From contig NZ_CP078067.1 in NCBI RefSeq assembly GCF_019195395.1, forward strand, positions 558,001-622,000: a stretch of DNA of 64,000 bases, written 5' to 3'. Below, in pieces: positions 1 to 12,228 of the stretch; the first letter of the stretch is position 1, and every line of letters starts with the position of its first letter. Position numbers and translations under genes: made by a program. Under the pieces are notes generated by a model. The model searched no databases. It saw only the letters and a program-made list of their open reading frames with translations, and was not told the origin of the DNA. This DNA comes from Kaistella faecalis. GTDB lineage: Bacteria > Bacteroidota > Bacteroidia > Flavobacteriales > Weeksellaceae.

Positions 1-3000
1 ATTTATAGTGCGATGCCGCCGAGTTTTGAAAATCATGGTCAACGAATCCGACTTGTAGATCAGGTTATTGAAACTAAATTTGGAAACTGTATTGACATTA
101 CCCTTCTGTTCGCAGCATGTCTTGAAGCAAGCGATCTAAACCCCATCGTCATTATTACAAAAGGGCACGCTTTTGTAGGAGTCTGGCTTGAAGATAAGCG
201 TTTCGAGTCGATGATCAATTTTGATCAGGCAGCGATCGCCAAGAGAATTGCGCAAGGAATCAGGGAGATTATAATAATTGAAACTACCACTCTCTGTAAA
301 GGAAGCAACATACCGTTCAGCAAAGCGATCGCAGAAGCTGAAGTGCAATTACTGAACGAGGCGGATTTTGTTCTTTCCCTCGATATTAAAAATACAAGAT
401 CTAATGGCGTGGTGCCTTTATCAATATCACCGATTAATTCGGGATTAAAGAATAATATTCCATCTGTGGGCGGTATGGCCGACATTGTTTTAGATGACGA
501 ATACGATCTTGGTGAAACCTACGACAATCTTGAACTTACCGATTTCACCAATCTTACCAAACAGAAAATATGGGAGAGGAAACTGCTGGATTTATCATTG
601 CGGAATAATCTGCTCAATTTACGTTTTACCAAGAGCATGCTTCAGATTGTTGATCTAAAAATTAACCTGCTTGAGGATACTTTCGCCGAAGGCAAGGCAT
701 ACACCATACAGCCGGATAATAATCAGCCGGTTACGCGAAAATATAACAACTATCTGCCACCTATACACAGTTCCTCTGATTTATTTAAACTTGCAAACGA
801 TGAGTTCAAATATAATCGCCTGCTTACGACCTACCATAATGATGATTTAGACGCTATTTTAACGAACCTTTTCCGTACCTCCAAACTTGCCGAAGAAGAA
901 AACGGAAAAAGTACTTTATATCTGGGTCTCGGTCTACTGAAGTGGTTTGAACCCAGAAATAGAAACGTCCCGCGTTTTGCGCCCATCTTGCTTATTCCTG
1001 TGGAACTGTTCAGAAAATCAGTCACTTCGAAATATACTTTGAGAAGCCGCGAAGAAGAAACCATGATTAACATCACGTTAATCGAGTATTTGAAGCAGGA
1101 ATACAATCTGAATCTGCATGCGTTGCAAACGCTGCCAATGGACGATTTAGGTGTAGATGTCCCTAGGGTTCTAGCTATGATCCGCAGCGCAGTGCTTAAT
1201 TTGGAAGGTTGGGACGTATTGGAGCAGATTGTTTTAGGTACTTTTTCATTTAATAAACTCATCTTATGGCAGGATATTTCCAAATATGCTGAGGAAATTC
1301 AAAAAAGCCCTATCGTAAAAAGTCTGATTGACGGTAAGTTATCCAATACTTTGGAAAGTGTAGAGGCGGACTATCTTGAGTTGGAAAATCTGGCTTCGGC
1401 GGCATTAACTTTGCCCATTCCAGCGGACAATTCCCAGTTAAATGCGGTACTGAATGCCAATCAGAACAAAACATTCATTCTTCATGGTCCGCCGGGAACG
1501 GGAAAATCACAGACCATTACCAATATTATTGCAGACGCACTAGCCAACAATAAAAAAGTATTGTTTGTGGCAGCAAAAAAAGCGGCATTAGATGTCGTAC
1601 ACAAGCGATTGGAAAATATTGGACTGGCACCTTTCTGCTTAGAATTGCACTCTAATAAATCTAAGAAGTCAGATGTATTAAAACAGTTCGAAGAGGTCCT
1701 AGCGGTACCTAAGTATCAGCTGAACAAAAATTTTTTACAGGAAGCGACACGGCTAGACGAACGTAAAAATGAAATAAACAAATACGTCACTCAGTTACAT
1801 CATAAAAATTCAATAGGTTGGAGCTTATATGATTCCATTTCGTTTTTGGAAAGTAATACAGTTTCCTACTTTGACGGAGAAAAAGTACATATTGATTTTA
1901 AAAATCTAACAATTTCAAAATGGAATACCTGGAACGATTGGATTGTGCCCTTCAGTTCTATTGGTGTGAAAACCGGTGCGCCCTCTACTCATCCGTTACG
2001 TCTAGTGAAAATAGACAGCCATCAGTTCGACCATCAGAATAATCTTTCGAAAGCGATTGAGAACTACCGCTCGACTTATGAGAAAGCCCAGGATTTATTT
2101 AATAAGTATCAAATTGACAGTAATCAGTACAAGGCCTTTTCATCGGTTTTTAGCTTTATTAAAGAAAACCAAATTCATCCAGCGCTTTTTGAGTTCTATT
2201 TCGACAAAGAAAAACAGCAGGATCTGAACCAATGGGTTGAATTTAATGCTAAAATGCAAAGTCTGGAATCTGCCATTACAGTAAAATTCAGCGAGAATAT
2301 TCTGGGAATGGATGTCGCTCCCTTACGAATAACCTGGAACCAATACAGACATGCGTGGTTTTTGCCAAAATGGATCAATCAGCGAAAAGTAAAGAAGCAG
2401 TTGCAGGGTTATGCCAATTCAAAAATAGAATCCGAAGAAATTATTGATCAACTATTTAGCCGGCTGGAAGAGTATCAGACTGTAAAGGGTAAGCTTTCTG
2501 AAAATAAGTTTAATGTTTACAGCAGTTTGCGCGCACATTATTTCCTGAATGATAATCTGGACACTAAACATCTCCAAACGTCTCTGCGCCACGTGGAACA
2601 ACTGGATATAAGTCTTAAACAGTCTTTGGTTGAAAGCCCGGAGGAATGGATGAAAGGGAACTTTATAAATCTGAATATAACACAGGAAATTGAGCAGATC
2701 ACAGCGGACGCAAACCTGCTGGAAAATACGGAAGAGCATCTTAAAAATTATCTGTCAGAAATTCCGAATCTGGAGAAGCTTTCGGACATAAAAGTCAATC
2801 TTCATCAGTTGGAAAACTGGATTAATTACAATATTTACAGCACGAAAGCACAGGAAATAGATCTTAAATGGTTTGTTGATTTGTTAGAGGAAGGAAAAGT
2901 AAATCCTAATAATATCCAGTTTGATTTTAATAAAATACTGCACTTCAATCATTTCATCCAAACTACTTACAACTCTGAAGTTTTAACAGGTTTTGATATC

Positions 3001-5139
3001 AATATTTACGAATCGTTAATTCAGCAGTATAAAAAGCTCCACAAAGAGTTCGTAGATATTTCCAAAAATAAGTTAATTGTAAAATTAAGTTCAAATATTC
3101 CAAATTTCAGTCAGGATGCTGCTCAAAGCTCGGAAATTGGATTTTTACAGAAAGCAATTAGGAGCAGAGGTAGAGGTGTTTCTATCAGGAGGCTTTTTGA
3201 TCAGATTCCAGCTTTAATTCCACGACTAAAACCGTGCATGCTCATGAGTCCGATTTCAGTCGCGCAATATTTTGACGTGGACAGCGAGCATTTTGATCTG
3301 GTCATCTTTGATGAAGCGTCTCAATTGCCAACATCAGAAGCAATAAGTGCTTTAGCAAGAGCAAAGCAGGCGATAATTGTCGGAGATCCAAAACAGATGC
3401 CCCCAACCAGTTTCTTTTCTTCTTCGAAGGTGGATGAAGATAATTTAGAAATGGAGGACTTGGAAAGTATTTTAGAGGATTGTCTGGCTTTATCGATCCC
3501 GTCTAATTATTTGCTAAGACATTATCGCAGCAAGCACGAGAGTTTAATATCCTTCAGTAATAAAAACTTTTATGACAGTAAGTTGTTAACGTTCCCTTCT
3601 CCTGATGATTTAAATCAGAAGGTGACGTTTGAATTTGTAGAAGGATTTTATGACAAGGGGAAAACAAGAACAAACAAGAATGAAGCTTTTGCAATTATTA
3701 ATTATATTAAAAAACACTTGTCCTTAGGTATCAGAAAGTCGCTAGGTGTTGTAACTTTTAGTCAGACCCAACAGACTTTAATTGAAGATTTATTGCAGAA
3801 ATTGTTTCAGGAGAATCCGCAGTTGGAAGAGTTCGCGATGAATACAGAAGAGCCCATTTTTATTAAAAATCTTGAAAATGTGCAGGGCGATGAACGGGAT
3901 TTCATTCTGTTTTCAATTGGATATGGTCCTGACGAGGAAAATAAAATATCGATGAACTTTGGTCCATTGAATCGGGACGGAGGATGGAGAAGATTAAATG
4001 TGGCGGTTACAAGAGCGCGGTATGAAATGAAAGTGTTTTCTTCGCTGAAGAGTGACCAGATAGACCTGAACCGGACAAAATCTGAAGGGGTGAAAGGTCT
4101 AAAAGACTTTCTACATTTTGCAGAAAAAGGCAACTTTTCCCTGCGTTTGCCTGCGGAAAATACAGATAAAATTTCTCTCACTGAATCTATTGCAAAACAT
4201 CTGGAAAGCAAAGGTCTGAAAGTGAGCAGAAATATCGGTACCTCAGATTATAAAGTAGATTTGGGGATTGTACATCCCGAGAATGAAAATGAGTATGTGC
4301 TGGGGATATTGGTCGATAGTGAAAACTACTATAATATACATACCACAAACGACCGGGAACTATTGGCACCCAATGTATTAGCAGGCCTAGATTGGAATTT
4401 ATATCGAATTTGGACGTTGGATTGGCTGAAAAATAAAGATAAGATCATTGCGCAGGTAGAGGAAAAAGTGGAGCATTATAAAAATTTGCCTAAAGAGGAA
4501 AAAACAGTTGAACCAGTTTTACCAACGGACGCACTTAGATCGCAAAATCCTTTACTCGAAATCGAAAGCATCGGTTTCAATAAAGCTATGATTCCTTACG
4601 AAAGTGCGGTTATAGAATTTGCAGCATCCGCGAATTCAGAGAGCATATACTTTTTGGAGAACCGAACTTTACTTATTGATCAATTCACCAAAATAATTTC
4701 AGTCGAAGCTCCGATCAGCAAAAATTACTTATTCAGAAAAGTTCTTAAATTATGGAATACTGCAAGAGCTGGTACTAAACTCAATGGGTATCTCACACAA
4801 ATAGTTGAGAGCATACCGGCAGTTTCGAAAAATGAAACACACCAGGTTTTCTATTGGAATGAAATGGTCAACCCGGAAAATCTTCATCAGTACCGAGATA
4901 ACTCTGTTGAAAAAAGATCAATAGAAGACATTTCTCAGGAAGAAATCATGTTGGTGGTCATGGAAATTCTGGAAATGAATTTAAGTTTAGGTAAGGAGGA
5001 CCTGGTAAGAATTACGTCAAAAACATTGGGTTTTATGAAGGTTGGAAATCAAATTGCCCAAATTATAAGTGCTGCGATTAATATATTACTTGAGACGGGG
5101 AATGTAAATATAAAAGATGGCCGTGTAAATGTAGTTTAA
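1..5139 (+). CDS. DUF4011/SF1 helicase/Vsr-like nuclease large protein (5' truncated)
   Basis: The frame is open to the window edge, so the N-terminus is missing; 1708 residues follow the first Met (position 13), used for numbering here. Residues ~10-65 look like a transglutaminase-type Cys-His region (C26 in GNCIDIT, H52 in GHAFVGVW). A DUF4011-like segment follows (~185-400). The helicase core has Walker A GPPGTGKS (~492-499), a long coiled insert, Walker B VIFDEASQLP (~1097), GDPKQMPPT (~1123) and AVTRAR (~1331), as in SF1/UPF1-like enzymes. Residues ~1385-1475 resemble the Vsr-like MTES_1575 endonuclease fold (VDLGIV then LVDSENY and YRIWTLDW). The C-terminus resembles DUF3320. This domain order is known from phage-defence candidates (DUF4011-helicase-Vsr). 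Defence is inferred. A terminator follows. Confidence 0.85.
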   Translation: MYSAMPPSFENHGQRIRLVDQVIETKFGNCIDITLLFAACLEASDLNPIVIITKGHAFVGVWLEDKRFESMINFDQAAIAKRIAQGIREIIIIETTTLCKGSNIPFSKAIAEAEVQLLNEADFVLSLDIKNTRSNGVVPLSISPINSGLKNNIPSVGGMADIVLDDEYDLGETYDNLELTDFTNLTKQKIWERKLLDLSLRNNLLNLRFTKSMLQIVDLKINLLEDTFAEGKAYTIQPDNNQPVTRKYNNYLPPIHSSSDLFKLANDEFKYNRLLTTYHNDDLDAILTNLFRTSKLAEEENGKSTLYLGLGLLKWFEPRNRNVPRFAPILLIPVELFRKSVTSKYTLRSREEETMINITLIEYLKQEYNLNLHALQTLPMDDLGVDVPRVLAMIRSAVLNLEGWDVLEQIVLGTFSFNKLILWQDISKYAEEIQKSPIVKSLIDGKLSNTLESVEADYLELENLASAALTLPIPADNSQLNAVLNANQNKTFILHGPPGTGKSQTITNIIADALANNKKVLFVAAKKAALDVVHKRLENIGLAPFCLELHSNKSKKSDVLKQFEEVLAVPKYQLNKNFLQEATRLDERKNEINKYVTQLHHKNSIGWSLYDSISFLESNTVSYFDGEKVHIDFKNLTISKWNTWNDWIVPFSSIGVKTGAPSTHPLRLVKIDSHQFDHQNNLSKAIENYRSTYEKAQDLFNKYQIDSNQYKAFSSVFSFIKENQIHPALFEFYFDKEKQQDLNQWVEFNAKMQSLESAITVKFSENILGMDVAPLRITWNQYRHAWFLPKWINQRKVKKQLQGYANSKIESEEIIDQLFSRLEEYQTVKGKLSENKFNVYSSLRAHYFLNDNLDTKHLQTSLRHVEQLDISLKQSLVESPEEWMKGNFINLNITQEIEQITADANLLENTEEHLKNYLSEIPNLEKLSDIKVNLHQLENWINYNIYSTKAQEIDLKWFVDLLEEGKVNPNNIQFDFNKILHFNHFIQTTYNSEVLTGFDINIYESLIQQYKKLHKEFVDISKNKLIVKLSSNIPNFSQDAAQSSEIGFLQKAIRSRGRGVSIRRLFDQIPALIPRLKPCMLMSPISVAQYFDVDSEHFDLVIFDEASQLPTSEAISALARAKQAIIVGDPKQMPPTSFFSSSKVDEDNLEMEDLESILEDCLALSIPSNYLLRHYRSKHESLISFSNKNFYDSKLLTFPSPDDLNQKVTFEFVEGFYDKGKTRTNKNEAFAIINYIKKHLSLGIRKSLGVVTFSQTQQTLIEDLLQKLFQENPQLEEFAMNTEEPIFIKNLENVQGDERDFILFSIGYGPDEENKISMNFGPLNRDGGWRRLNVAVTRARYEMKVFSSLKSDQIDLNRTKSEGVKGLKDFLHFAEKGNFSLRLPAENTDKISLTESIAKHLESKGLKVSRNIGTSDYKVDLGIVHPENENEYVLGILVDSENYYNIHTTNDRELLAPNVLAGLDWNLYRIWTLDWLKNKDKIIAQVEEKVEHYKNLPKEEKTVEPVLPTDALRSQNPLLEIESIGFNKAMIPYESAVIEFAASANSESIYFLENRTLLIDQFTKIISVEAPISKNYLFRKVLKLWNTARAGTKLNGYLTQIVESIPAVSKNETHQVFYWNEMVNPENLHQYRDNSVEKRSIEDISQEEIMLVVMEILEMNLSLGKEDLVRITSKTLGFMKVGNQIAQIISAAINILLETGNVNIKDGRVNVV

Positions 5140-5778: not shown

Positions 5779-5812
5779 GGATATATTATCCCTTTTCAGA
5801 ATAGTATAGCTC
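5779..5812 (+). promoter_or_regulatory. Upstream element, copy 1 (shared with 6394-6428)
   Basis: This 34-nt stretch, containing TATCCC, TTTTCA and ATAGCTC blocks, matches 6394-6428 at about 28 of 34 aligned positions with a single 1-nt gap. Each copy lies ~45 nt upstream of the start codon of an accessory gene. That position suits an activator or -33 region site. Joint regulation of the two transcription units is inferred. Confidence 0.5.
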
Positions 5813-5854: not shown

Positions 5855-6390
5855 ATGAAAAGAAAAAAATAGATTTTGAAGCCAGATTTTGGGCTTCGTA
5901 TTCAGGGACTTGCTCATTGAGAGTATTTGATGACTTGTTTACAAGCGGTACATTAAGTGAAACCAAAGACCGGTTATTTGAACTCATGCATTTTACAATG
6001 AGGCCACAAGTCTTTTTACAGCGTGATCCTTCACTGGTTCTGCATTTTTATGTTTCCCTCAAATCATTTTTACGTGCGGCTTATGTGCTGACGTCAGGAT
6101 CGAAAAAATGGAAATTGAGTGAACCTCCTCAATATGTTTCTCACGTCATGCAGGGTTCGTTATTCGACGACGAGTACACTGATCCGTTTTTGGTATTTAC
6201 GAGAGCCTTTAGGGATTTTTCTCTCCAGGAATTCGAGGATTTTCTTACGGAGGTTACTTATTTTTCTCTGGGTCCGTATAGCGATCATCCACAGGGGAAT
6301 GTTATTTCTCCGTTTTTACATCTTCAGAAAATGCTTGATGCGGCCCAACTCATCCGCGAACGGGGTATTGAAAAGATAAAATATCCATAA
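5855..6390 (+). CDS. Hypothetical protein; start apparently displaced by a poly-A frameshift
   Basis: The family is not recognised. The reading frame is open from 5851 to 6390, but it has no ATG near its 5' end; the first usual start is a TTG at 5917 (157 aa). Protein-like sequence (KIDFEARFWASYSGTCSL) continues upstream of that TTG. An ATG at 5855 behind an A/G-rich leader is in another frame and stops after five codons at TAG. One extra A in the A7 run at 5863-5869 would join it to the long frame. So this is a homopolymer indel, a sequencing error, or an unusual TTG start. The product is soluble-looking, aromatic-rich, with no signal peptide or membrane segment. Its upstream region resembles that of the 6473 operon. 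Confidence 0.55.
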
Positions 6391-6393
6391 TCA

Positions 6394-6428
6394 GGAATAT
6401 AATATCCCTCTTCAAACTTGAATAGCTC
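6394..6428 (+). promoter_or_regulatory. Upstream element, copy 2 (shared with 5779-5812)
   Basis: This 35-nt stretch carries the same TATCCC, TTCA and AATAGCTC blocks as copy 1. It sits ~45 nt before the ATG at 6473. AAATTTG at 6442-6448, between element and gene, is a weak -7 candidate. See the finding on shared control. Confidence 0.5.
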
Positions 6429-6472: not shown

Positions 6473-7288
6473 ATGATGGAAACGAAACAGAAAATCAGCA
6501 TTCCTTTACCGCATGAGGTCATCAGAAATCAGATCTCTCAAGCCCTTCATGAATTTTCAGTGCTTCAGCTGCATGTGTTAAAGCCTGAAAACACTTCATC
6601 AATAGAAGTACTGATCCTGATGAAAGACCCTAAAGAGGCAGAAACCCTGCGCGCCAGAAAATGGATAGCCAAAGCTGCAGCTGCTCAGGTCAGTATCCAT
6701 ATTGCTTATCACCATAAAGCAGAATTTCAGTTGAAATGCGGCAATCCTTTCTATCAGTATTACGCTGATCCCTCAGCAATGGTCTGGATGAATGAGGAAG
6801 TTGGTGTACCGCTGAAAACGCACCCCACAAAGAAAGCGTTTAAGAAAAAGCTGAATGTTTTTAAGGAGAAGTTTTACCATGACCATGACCTCCTGATGAC
6901 AGAAGCCAATAAATTTCACGCCGGCCAGAGGTATGCAGCGGCCTTTCAGAATTACCTGACCTTATTTGAGCATCATGTGGAATACCTGGAAAACTTATAC
7001 ATGGGCTGTAATTTCTTTGACAGAAACCTTCACACAAGACTTACACAGCTGATCCGCTATATTCCGGAAATTCAGAAAGTTTTTGTGATGAAAAATGAAC
7101 ATACTTTTTACCTGATCAGCAAAATGGAGGAATCAGTAAGTGAAGCGGAAGGCGGTGGCGAATCTGATATTTATTCAGAGCTTTCTAGTGCGGTAAAATC
7201 AGCAGAAGCACAGCTGTATAAGATGGTTGCTGATAAATTCTCGCAATTCACCCATGTGATTCGCTTCAAAAAAAGTCACCACAAATAA
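6473..7288 (+). CDS. Unknown protein, possible degenerate nucleotidyltransferase + HEPN-like helical domain (A)
   Basis: 271 aa. Residues ~10-100 read like an alpha/beta domain (LQLHVLK then SIEVLILMKD) in the layout of MNT-type nucleotidyltransferases, but the GS and DxD catalytic motifs are absent. Residues ~130-265 are all-helical, with an amphipathic stretch (AAFQNYLTLFEHHVEYLENL) recalling HEPN/TPR-like bundles. No signal peptide or membrane segment is present. The start (ATG 6473, or 6476) follows a leader ending TTTAAAAATACAAA. The stop codon overlaps the ATG of the next gene by one base (TAATG), so the two are translationally coupled and probably interact. The domain assignment is tentative and made by eye. 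Confidence 0.6.
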   Translation: MMETKQKISIPLPHEVIRNQISQALHEFSVLQLHVLKPENTSSIEVLILMKDPKEAETLRARKWIAKAAAAQVSIHIAYHHKAEFQLKCGNPFYQYYADPSAMVWMNEEVGVPLKTHPTKKAFKKKLNVFKEKFYHDHDLLMTEANKFHAGQRYAAAFQNYLTLFEHHVEYLENLYMGCNFFDRNLHTRLTQLIRYIPEIQKVFVMKNEHTFYLISKMEESVSEAEGGGESDIYSELSSAVKSAEAQLYKMVADKFSQFTHVIRFKKSHHK

Positions 7289-8109
7289 TGAACTGTTATG
7301 CGAAAGATACCGAAGTTAAAGATCATCATTTTGAGAATGTATTAAAAACCATTATCACAAAACTTGCACCGGAAGAAATTTACTTATTTCAAACAAAAGA
7401 AATATGTTCTCCAAACCCTGAAGAAAAGCAATGCATCTATTATCTGCTGGTCATTGGTGACGGAATTGGAAACAGTGCCATTGAGGATATTCAGCACTCA
7501 GTATCGGACACGTCGAATGGCAGGACAAATGTTGTGATATTGGGTCACAGCAGAATATACCTTCAGAATCATCTGAGTAAACATCAACAGCTGATGAAGC
7601 GGATCATCACCGATGAAAATAAAGTGTATCAGTCCAATGATTTCCACCCAGCCATTCATTGGCAGGATTCTGTATGGGCCAGTGATTGGGAATTTAACAT
7701 GCAGTATCGTACCGTGAAAGACTTTGTAGAACAGTACTTTAATCTTCGGGATCACCTGCAGCATGATAATCATTGCGGACTTGTACAGTTGTTTTCAAAC
7801 AGCATCATGCGCCTGTTACGCATTTACATTAATGCTGCGTTTCCCTATTATATGCCACACTACTTAAACGCATACAGTATATGGAAACTTTGTGTTTACG
7901 CAGATCCGTCTCTGGAAAAAACTGAATTTTTATTTGAAAAACTTTCCACTGATTTTTATAAATTAATAGATCACTATATTAAATATTCAGACAGCAGGGG
8001 AAGGTCATCAGCGGAAGAATTAATTATTATGGATGAAATCCTGAACGTTCTGACCAAAAAATTAGATCATCTGATTAAAGAGAAAAATCTTATTCTTCAA
8101 GCCGACTAA
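7288..8109 (+). CDS. Unknown protein, possible degenerate nucleotidyltransferase + HEPN-like helical domain (B)
   Basis: 273 aa, nearly the same length as the upstream gene and with the same apparent layout. An N-terminal alpha/beta half (EEIYLFQTK, then CIYYLLVIGDG) lacks nucleotidyltransferase catalytic residues. The helical C-terminal half contains MRLLRIYINAAFPYYMPHYL, which resembles the long-helix region of HEPN proteins. No clear RxxxxH catalytic signature was seen. The ATG overlaps the previous stop codon. The two proteins may be divergent paralogues forming a heteromer; this is inferred from layout, not from a clear alignment. A terminator hairpin follows directly. Confidence 0.6.
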   Translation: MNCYAKDTEVKDHHFENVLKTIITKLAPEEIYLFQTKEICSPNPEEKQCIYYLLVIGDGIGNSAIEDIQHSVSDTSNGRTNVVILGHSRIYLQNHLSKHQQLMKRIITDENKVYQSNDFHPAIHWQDSVWASDWEFNMQYRTVKDFVEQYFNLRDHLQHDNHCGLVQLFSNSIMRLLRIYINAAFPYYMPHYLNAYSIWKLCVYADPSLEKTEFLFEKLSTDFYKLIDHYIKYSDSRGRSSAEELIIMDEILNVLTKKLDHLIKEKNLILQAD

Positions 8110-10290: not shown

Positions 10291-10660
10291 ATTTTTTTAG
10301 TTTTTCTTAGTAGTGAATCGCAGCAATTTTGTTATTCTTTTAAAAGTCTTTGACTTTTTTGTGATCATATATTCCAATTTTCACCTTAAACTAGTTCTTA
10401 AGACATAACTATCTTTAAGGCTGTTGTTTTACAACTCTATATGTAATCTTTATTCCAATGCATTTTCGGATGAAAATCGTTATTAGAAATTTTCTGATCG
10501 CTATTCATGATCTTTTTTAAAAGTGCTGAGATTGATAGATGTTTTCTTGAATCCATAATCCGGTAGTGTAAATAATAGTGAACTTTAAATTTCGCTGACA
10601 CCTCTTTTCTTTAGTTTTATGAGCATTTTTTAGTTGCACTGCATCGTAGTAGATCGCCCT
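10291..10660. other. Non-coding stretch without recognisable genes
   Basis: About 370 bp of A/T-rich DNA between the ice-binding protein terminator and the first REP-like repeat. No frame shows protein-like composition or a convincing start. The whole gene-free interval runs to 11304; the repeats in it are listed separately. Confidence 0.6.
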
Positions 10661-11304: not shown

Positions 11305-12228
11305 CTACACTCCCCTCCCATACTGCTGGGCCGCCGCACGCAGGTCACGCTCAATCTCAGCTCTCAAAGTTGGTGGCGACAAAACTTCTACGCGCTGACC
11401 ATGAGACAAAATTTCCTGTCTGAAATCATAAGTCGGCACAAGATAATAAGAGAATAAAGTTCTTCCGTTTTCTTCCTTTACAACCCGTTGTGAATGATGA
11501 AGGGGAAGCGATTTGATATAATTTCCCTGCTCCCGGTCAAAAGACAAAATAATATCTGACGGCTTTTCTCCATTAGGTGCGATAATGCCAAAGCTTTGAC
11601 TAAACGCAGTCCGCGGATCAAACTGCTCCTTTTTAAAACTGCTGTTTTTAATTTCAAAATCCGAAATGCGGTCTAATGCAAAAGTTTTGATAAACAGATT
11701 TTCAGATTTGAATTCATTAGCCAGAAGGTACCATCGGTGGTGAAATTCTTTCAGCGCATAAGGTTCAACGACACGCTCAGATTTATCACTCGTCCAGTAT
11801 TTTTCATAAGTAAAGCTGATCACTTTTGAGTTCTGTATCGCGTGAATAATTCCGTTCAGCAGGTTTAAGCCCCGGGATTTCCTGGGTTCAAAGATCATAA
11901 TGTCAGAATTGCTTTTGGCTTCACGGTAGGCTTCAACCAACAGCAGATTGTCAAATACGGATTCCTCAGCGTTGGTAAGTTCTTCTTCAGCGATATAATA
12001 CACATCCCGGGAGCGCCGGTAAGAAATTTGAATGCCTGCTACTTTCAAAATAGCTTTTTTATCCCGCTGAAAAGTACGTTCTGTGAATTTCAGTTCACCG
12101 AGGTCCTTTTCTTCAAATTTTCTTTCCAGGTAAGCCTTTGTCTCCCGATAACTTGCCCCTTTATCTTTTCTTCCTCTTAAATATTCCTGAATATACTGCA
12201 TACGCAGCATCTGTTCTTCTTTTGCCAT
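11305..12228 (-). CDS. WYL-domain transcriptional regulator
   Basis: 307 aa. The N-terminal ~80 residues form a winged-HTH-like region. The WYL domain spans ~125-230 and contains the name-giving motif in HHRWYLLANE (W166-Y167-L168), followed by FALDRISDFEI. The C-terminal extension (PTYDFRQEILSHGQRVEVLSP) is the usual WCX region. WYL proteins sense ligands, often nucleic-acid derivatives, and regulate defence or DNA-repair genes; the target here is unknown. The gene lies 12 bp downstream of a gene disrupted by a stop codon on the same strand and was probably co-transcribed with it. Confidence 0.92.
   Translation of the reverse strand: MAKEEQMLRMQYIQEYLRGRKDKGASYRETKAYLERKFEEKDLGELKFTERTFQRDKKAILKVAGIQISYRRSRDVYYIAEEELTNAEESVFDNLLLVEAYREAKSNSDIMIFEPRKSRGLNLLNGIIHAIQNSKVISFTYEKYWTSDKSERVVEPYALKEFHHRWYLLANEFKSENLFIKTFALDRISDFEIKNSSFKKEQFDPRTAFSQSFGIIAPNGEKPSDIILSFDREQGNYIKSLPLHHSQRVVKEENGRTLFSYYLVPTYDFRQEILSHGQRVEVLSPPTLRAEIERDLRAAAQQYGRGV

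Follow-up and report, generated by a model that had tools for sequence, protein, structure and literature searches.

The locus studied here raises the question of whether two adjacent open reading frames (ORFs) of almost equal length are two partner genes, and what kind of protein they encode. They lie in the genome of a Kaistella strain (2.66 Mb, one contig), within a stretch of 64,000 nucleotides that we refer to as the window (Table 1). The original prediction was a coupled pair of genes beside a defence-type helicase, each encoding an alpha/beta half without nucleotidyltransferase (NT) motifs followed by HEPN-like helices.

Table 1. Features of the module locus and its surroundings, in positions of the window.
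Feature	Position	Strand	Basis
ProA-type DUF4011 helicase with MTES_1575 nuclease domain	13..5139	+	NCBIfam
F1, divergent XRE-type helix-turn-helix (HTH) protein, 135 aa	5286..5693	-	PF01381 HTH_3, E 0.0022, below cut-off
Dyad GGATATATTATCC between F1 and F2, candidate F1 operator	5779..5791		strict-dyad enrichment
F2, helical protein, about 175 aa	5851..6390	+	comparison with L003:4990-5514
GGAATATAATATCC, a similar dyad ahead of the broken gene	6394..6407		
First fragment, unit 1 (predicted degenerate NT + HEPN-like helical domain)	6473..7288	+	271 aa
Frame-break site, A-run one base shorter than in K. soli	7268..7274	+	DNA alignment
Second fragment, unit 2 (predicted degenerate NT domain + HEPN-like domain)	7288..8109	+	273 aa
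Frame-broken relic of a divergent second family copy (unit 2 region)	10413..10640	-	profile E 3.5e-6 at 10413-10592

Origin of the Two Open Reading Frames

Both ORFs are present exactly as claimed and have one base in common (TAATG). The counterpart in K. soli, which belongs to the same genus, is one ORF of 544 aa (L003:8001-9635). In the DNA alignment, the window has one base fewer (TTCAAAAAAAGTC versus TTCAATAAAAAGTC in K. soli), so that the frame runs into a TAA immediately before the ATG. The final codons and the TAA stop of the first fragment arise from this frame break, while K. soli has an internal Met codon where the second fragment has its ATG, the TAATG being a by-product. The first fragment shares 85% identity with residues 2-267 of the K. 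soli protein, and the second shares 87% with its C-terminal half. Compared with K. soli, the first ORF has a dN/dS of 0.23 and the second one of 0.20, which indicates that both are protein-coding; the two halves of the K. soli gene compared with that of genome G105 give 0.28 and 0.22. Selection on both halves is thus unrelaxed, and the break is either recent or an error. Almost certainly, a single-base frame shift has split one gene into the two ORFs, and the reading as two genes has to be corrected to one broken gene.

Beyond K. soli, about 30 other copies in Flavobacteriales are likewise single ORFs of about 500-560 aa and never a pair, an outcome that the original prediction had itself named in advance as evidence against a pair. 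The proposed heteromer of two partner proteins is likewise unsupported: the relatives make one two-unit chain, the frame of which is broken in the window. The near-equal lengths of the two ORFs follow from the tandem arrangement of two homologous units.

Distribution and Integrity of the Family

Each half has matches in 29 of 200 genomes of the taxonomic family, nearly all of them the same genomes for both halves, and most of the matches lie in a single open frame about 500-560 aa long. Profile searches across the order and the phylum added Flavobacterium to the carriers and yielded zero matches outside Flavobacteriales at E <= 1e-4. Searches for relatives among phages, plasmids, and IMG/VR found none, and sequence-only searches of Pfam, NCBIfam, PDB, and PADLOC gave no match for the family. 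Judged from these reading frames, the intact family is one chain of about 545 aa with two tandem units. At loci L090-L092, L098, L099, L136, and L137, the double-unit gene appears as two divergent tandem copies, i.e., four units.

Breaks are present in nine of about 46 copies, at varying places (the window and genomes G043, G053, G100, G140, G159, G160, G163, and G189). Apart from the window, none of the broken copies is split between the units.

Domain Nature of the Units

The predicted layout of each half was supported by profile-profile comparison (HHalign). Unit 2 matches true single-chain NT-HEPN proteins collinearly over 247 columns (93%, P 2-4e-7). It also matches a set of single-unit degenerate proteins of about 290 aa (98%, P about 1e-14), which in turn match the true NT-HEPN proteins (99.9%, P about 1e-34). 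These single-unit proteins are present in Flavobacterium and Sphingobacteriia, group names that come from kinship labels and genome reading. Two of the single-unit relatives exceed the cut-off of the Pfam HEPN model PF05168 (E 4.5e-11 and 2.9e-9), which 0 of 30 members of the double-unit family pass at its gathering cut-off, and one PF05168-matching protein retrieves the Flavobacterium single units as well as true NT-HEPN proteins (E 1.1e-15). Unit 1 matches a combined NT-HEPN profile over 254 columns (89%, P 2e-6); the reversed control reached 0.2%, and the best of 20 shuffles scored 19.0 versus 49.7 for the real sequence. For unit 2 against the true NT-HEPN proteins, as for unit 1 against the combined profile, reversed and shuffled controls failed to score. 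Taken alone, unit 1 is marginal (P 0.0016 to 0.07), and it reaches no significance in HHalign against unit 2 or against the true NT-HEPN proteins alone. We rejected a head-to-head comparison of the two units as proof, since it was insignificant and its reversed control scored alike; the claim for unit 1 rests on the combined profile.

The expectation that both parts are inactive in form also found support. The catalytic SDxD is found in 10/10 true NT-HEPN proteins, in 0/30 sequences of unit 1, 0/30 of unit 2, and 0/10 single-unit relatives. The HEPN RNase motif Rx4-6H is unconserved: in alignment A2, no R that is invariant or nearly so has an H 5-7 residues further on, and the pattern occurs in the family as scattered matches only.

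AlphaFold models of the halves, built from a two-row alignment (K. soli and the window), reached pLDDT values of 51.5 and 44.8, and Foldseek found no match to these low-confidence models at E <= 0.001. Resemblances to OsmC and ribosomal protein S3 were disbelieved, the confidence of the underlying models being too low.

From the profile evidence, strong for unit 2 and weaker but controlled for unit 1, each unit in all probability combines a degenerate nucleotidyltransferase-like domain with a HEPN-like helical domain behind it. That the likeness is superficial and the proteins are unrelated alpha/beta-helical proteins would agree with the empty sequence-only searches of Pfam, NCBIfam, and PDB and with the lack of an informative Foldseek match. 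We regard this as highly improbable, because the profile matches are full-length, collinear, and controlled, and because the single-unit intermediates match the Pfam HEPN model directly.

Companion Genes and Candidate Operators

Across 47 loci, F1 accompanies the double-unit gene in 37, F2 in 27, and a third gene, F3, in 15. The usual layout is a divergent F1, followed by F2, F3, and the double-unit gene. The spacing from F3 to the double-unit gene is -4 to +4 in most loci (a 4-base overlap or near contact), which is operon-like. In three loci of Sphingobacteriia (L178, L188, and L192), one chain carries a degenerate NT-HEPN unit as well as an F2-like domain (P about 1e-18), which supports a functional link between F2 and the unit. 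A place 74% identical to F2 is present in the window's own genome. F2 itself was considered as RteC and as HEPN-like, and both assignments were dropped, there being no Pfam match to the former and no profile match to the latter. Judging by secondary profile alignments (P about 3e-4 to 9e-4), the F2 family appears to be built from a pair of related helical repeats.

Different genera have short words of the F1-F2 intergenic region in common, far more than shuffled sequences do. Module loci (726 kb) contain the strict dyad GGATAnnnTATCC 10 times and control regions (480 kb) 0 times, and several of its occurrences in module loci lie upstream of isolated gene copies. The enrichment is confined to the strict dyad; a wider GGAwA-type motif is not enriched over controls. 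Dyads of the GGATAnnnTATCC type are candidate operators, which we link to F1 by inference.

Defence Neighbourhood

The neighbouring helicase is indeed of a defence type: it matches the NCBIfam model of anti-phage ProA with 1846 bits versus a cut-off of 1500, and the gene extends upstream past the window to 1901 aa in total. On the other side of the module, the product of a gene at 11305-12228 (-) resembles a WYL-type transcription regulator and has no NCBIfam match.

Control regions were taken largely from the same genomes (12 kb versus mostly 16 kb for the module regions, with mechanical gene calls), and on this basis HsdR/HsdM (type I restriction) is found in 11/49 module regions versus 0/40 controls (P 0.0009), or in 9/45 with similar loci removed (P 0.003), while the nearest neighbours match 228 PADLOC models versus 30 in controls, numbers that count overlapping models rather than proteins. 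Individual neighbours include Gabija GajA and GajB, PDC-S68, PifA-like and Avs4-like proteins, and a reverse transcriptase. They differ in kind, orientation, and distance from locus to locus, so that the module shares islands with these systems, while membership in any one of them would be conjecture.

State of the Module in the Window Genome

Further lesions surround the broken gene. In F2, a one-base deletion near 5859, in an A-rich stretch, puts the start codon out of frame, and the longest remaining ORF is 5917-6390 (TTG). The relic downstream resembles the tandem paralogue in L098. Upstream of the window, a gene for a PHP-domain ATPase (L101:4090-7140), which adjoins ProA in the same island, carries a premature in-frame stop. 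Most likely, the module in this genome is decaying, and the full protein is probably no longer made.

The frame break could instead be a sequencing or assembly error, the intact 544-aa protein really being made, and both its position in an A-run and the unrelaxed dN/dS on either side (0.23 and 0.20) would suit such an error. We consider this rather unlikely. Long ORFs of the window contain 31 homopolymer runs of similar length (nearly all A/T, 7-8 bases), a comparison biased by the choice of these ORFs for being open, and the lesions in F2, in the downstream relic, and in the upstream ATPase gene fit a decaying island. A functional split, in which a two-subunit form works because its halves are translationally coupled at TAATG or because slippage on the A7 run restores the frame, is less probable still. 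TAATG offers a favourable geometry for re-initiation, both halves remain conserved, and the break is placed exactly between the units. Against this, no second homologue is divided at the same place, the ATG is merely an inherited internal Met codon, and A7 is unconserved, K. soli having AATAAAAA and G105 AAAAAA, both in frame.

Proposed Role of the Intact Module

The explanation that best covers the whole, and which we favor with some reserve, is a broken gene for a double degenerate NT-HEPN protein that would serve as a catalytically dead binding subunit under HTH control. A HEPN/MNT ancestor would have been domesticated, with both enzymes lost. The double-unit protein may bind a nucleotide, RNA, or a partner protein within a complex of F2, F3, and the double-unit protein, and F1 may control the module promoter at GGATAnnnTATCC-like sites. 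In defence islands, the double-unit module might act as an accessory sensor or regulator, a role that we infer from sequence and put forward tentatively. It is more tentative to view the operon of HTH protein, F2, F3, and double NT-HEPN protein as a module of Flavobacteriales and Sphingobacteriia that would be new to description and would work in defence or in the manner of a toxin-antitoxin system. In this view, a HEPN/MNT pair would have been fused, then disarmed, and then duplicated, and the product would now be a sensor or scaffold for the F2 and F3 proteins.

The intact module could also be an active toxin-antitoxin or abortive infection system, in which the double-unit protein or F2/F3 would be the toxic component and antitoxin and repressor would be the HTH protein or a partner. 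Such a system would be in keeping with the HTH and operon architecture, the location in defence islands, the HEPN ancestry, the resemblance of F1 to HTH_VI, and the frequency of broken genes (nine of about 46 copies). We think it unlikely, since neither unit conserves the HEPN RNase motif, the NT motif is gone, and HEPN domains in fusions usually lack activity (PMC3710099).

A previously unnamed family without Pfam, NCBIfam, or PADLOC match can be placed as a probable doubly degenerate NT-HEPN derivative in a conserved context beside defence genes. If the module works in defence, its HEPN/MNT ancestor would have lost both enzymes and kept the binding function alone. The module can be tested directly, since relatives such as K. 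soli have intact copies of it.

Comparison With Known Systems

In PADLOC, the double-unit protein and F2 have no match, and F3 has only one to AbiEi (E 0.0096). F1 matches the model of the HTH protein of type VI retrons (HTH_VI; E 2.4e-7 for the K. soli homologue), and an unsystematic look at the surroundings showed a reverse-transcriptase match nearby at only one locus.

The HepT-MntA (HEPN/MNT, type VII) toxin-antitoxin system consists of two genes and combines an active adenylyltransferase with an RNase (PMC7641770, PMC11586414). The two domain types are common to HepT-MntA and the present family. In place of adjacent MNT and HEPN genes, the intact form of the family is a single ORF, with both domains in each unit; both look inactive, the MNT catalytic motif GSx(n)DxD being absent from the units and the HEPN RNase motif Rx4-6H unconserved, and an HTH gene and F2/F3 come in addition.

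Closer in architecture are the single-chain NT-HEPN proteins of Bacteroidota (L179/L165, L186/L167, L180, and L191), which look active. The profiles place an NT-like alpha/beta domain before a HEPN-like helical domain in both, with the same domain order, a unit of about 285 aa, and a collinear full-length match. The single-chain proteins retain the motif GS...SDYD, whereas the family described here lacks it and has two tandem units.

Published analysis describes the HEPN domains of MNT fusions as domesticated and usually devoid of RNase residues (PMC3710099). The HEPN domains fused to nucleotidyltransferases in GlnD/GlnE and in aminoglycoside nucleotidyltransferases are likewise without RNase residues (PMC3710099). 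In these enzymes, the HEPN domain is the binding or regulatory part and the nucleotidyltransferase is still active, whereas in the present family the NT activity appears to have been lost too.
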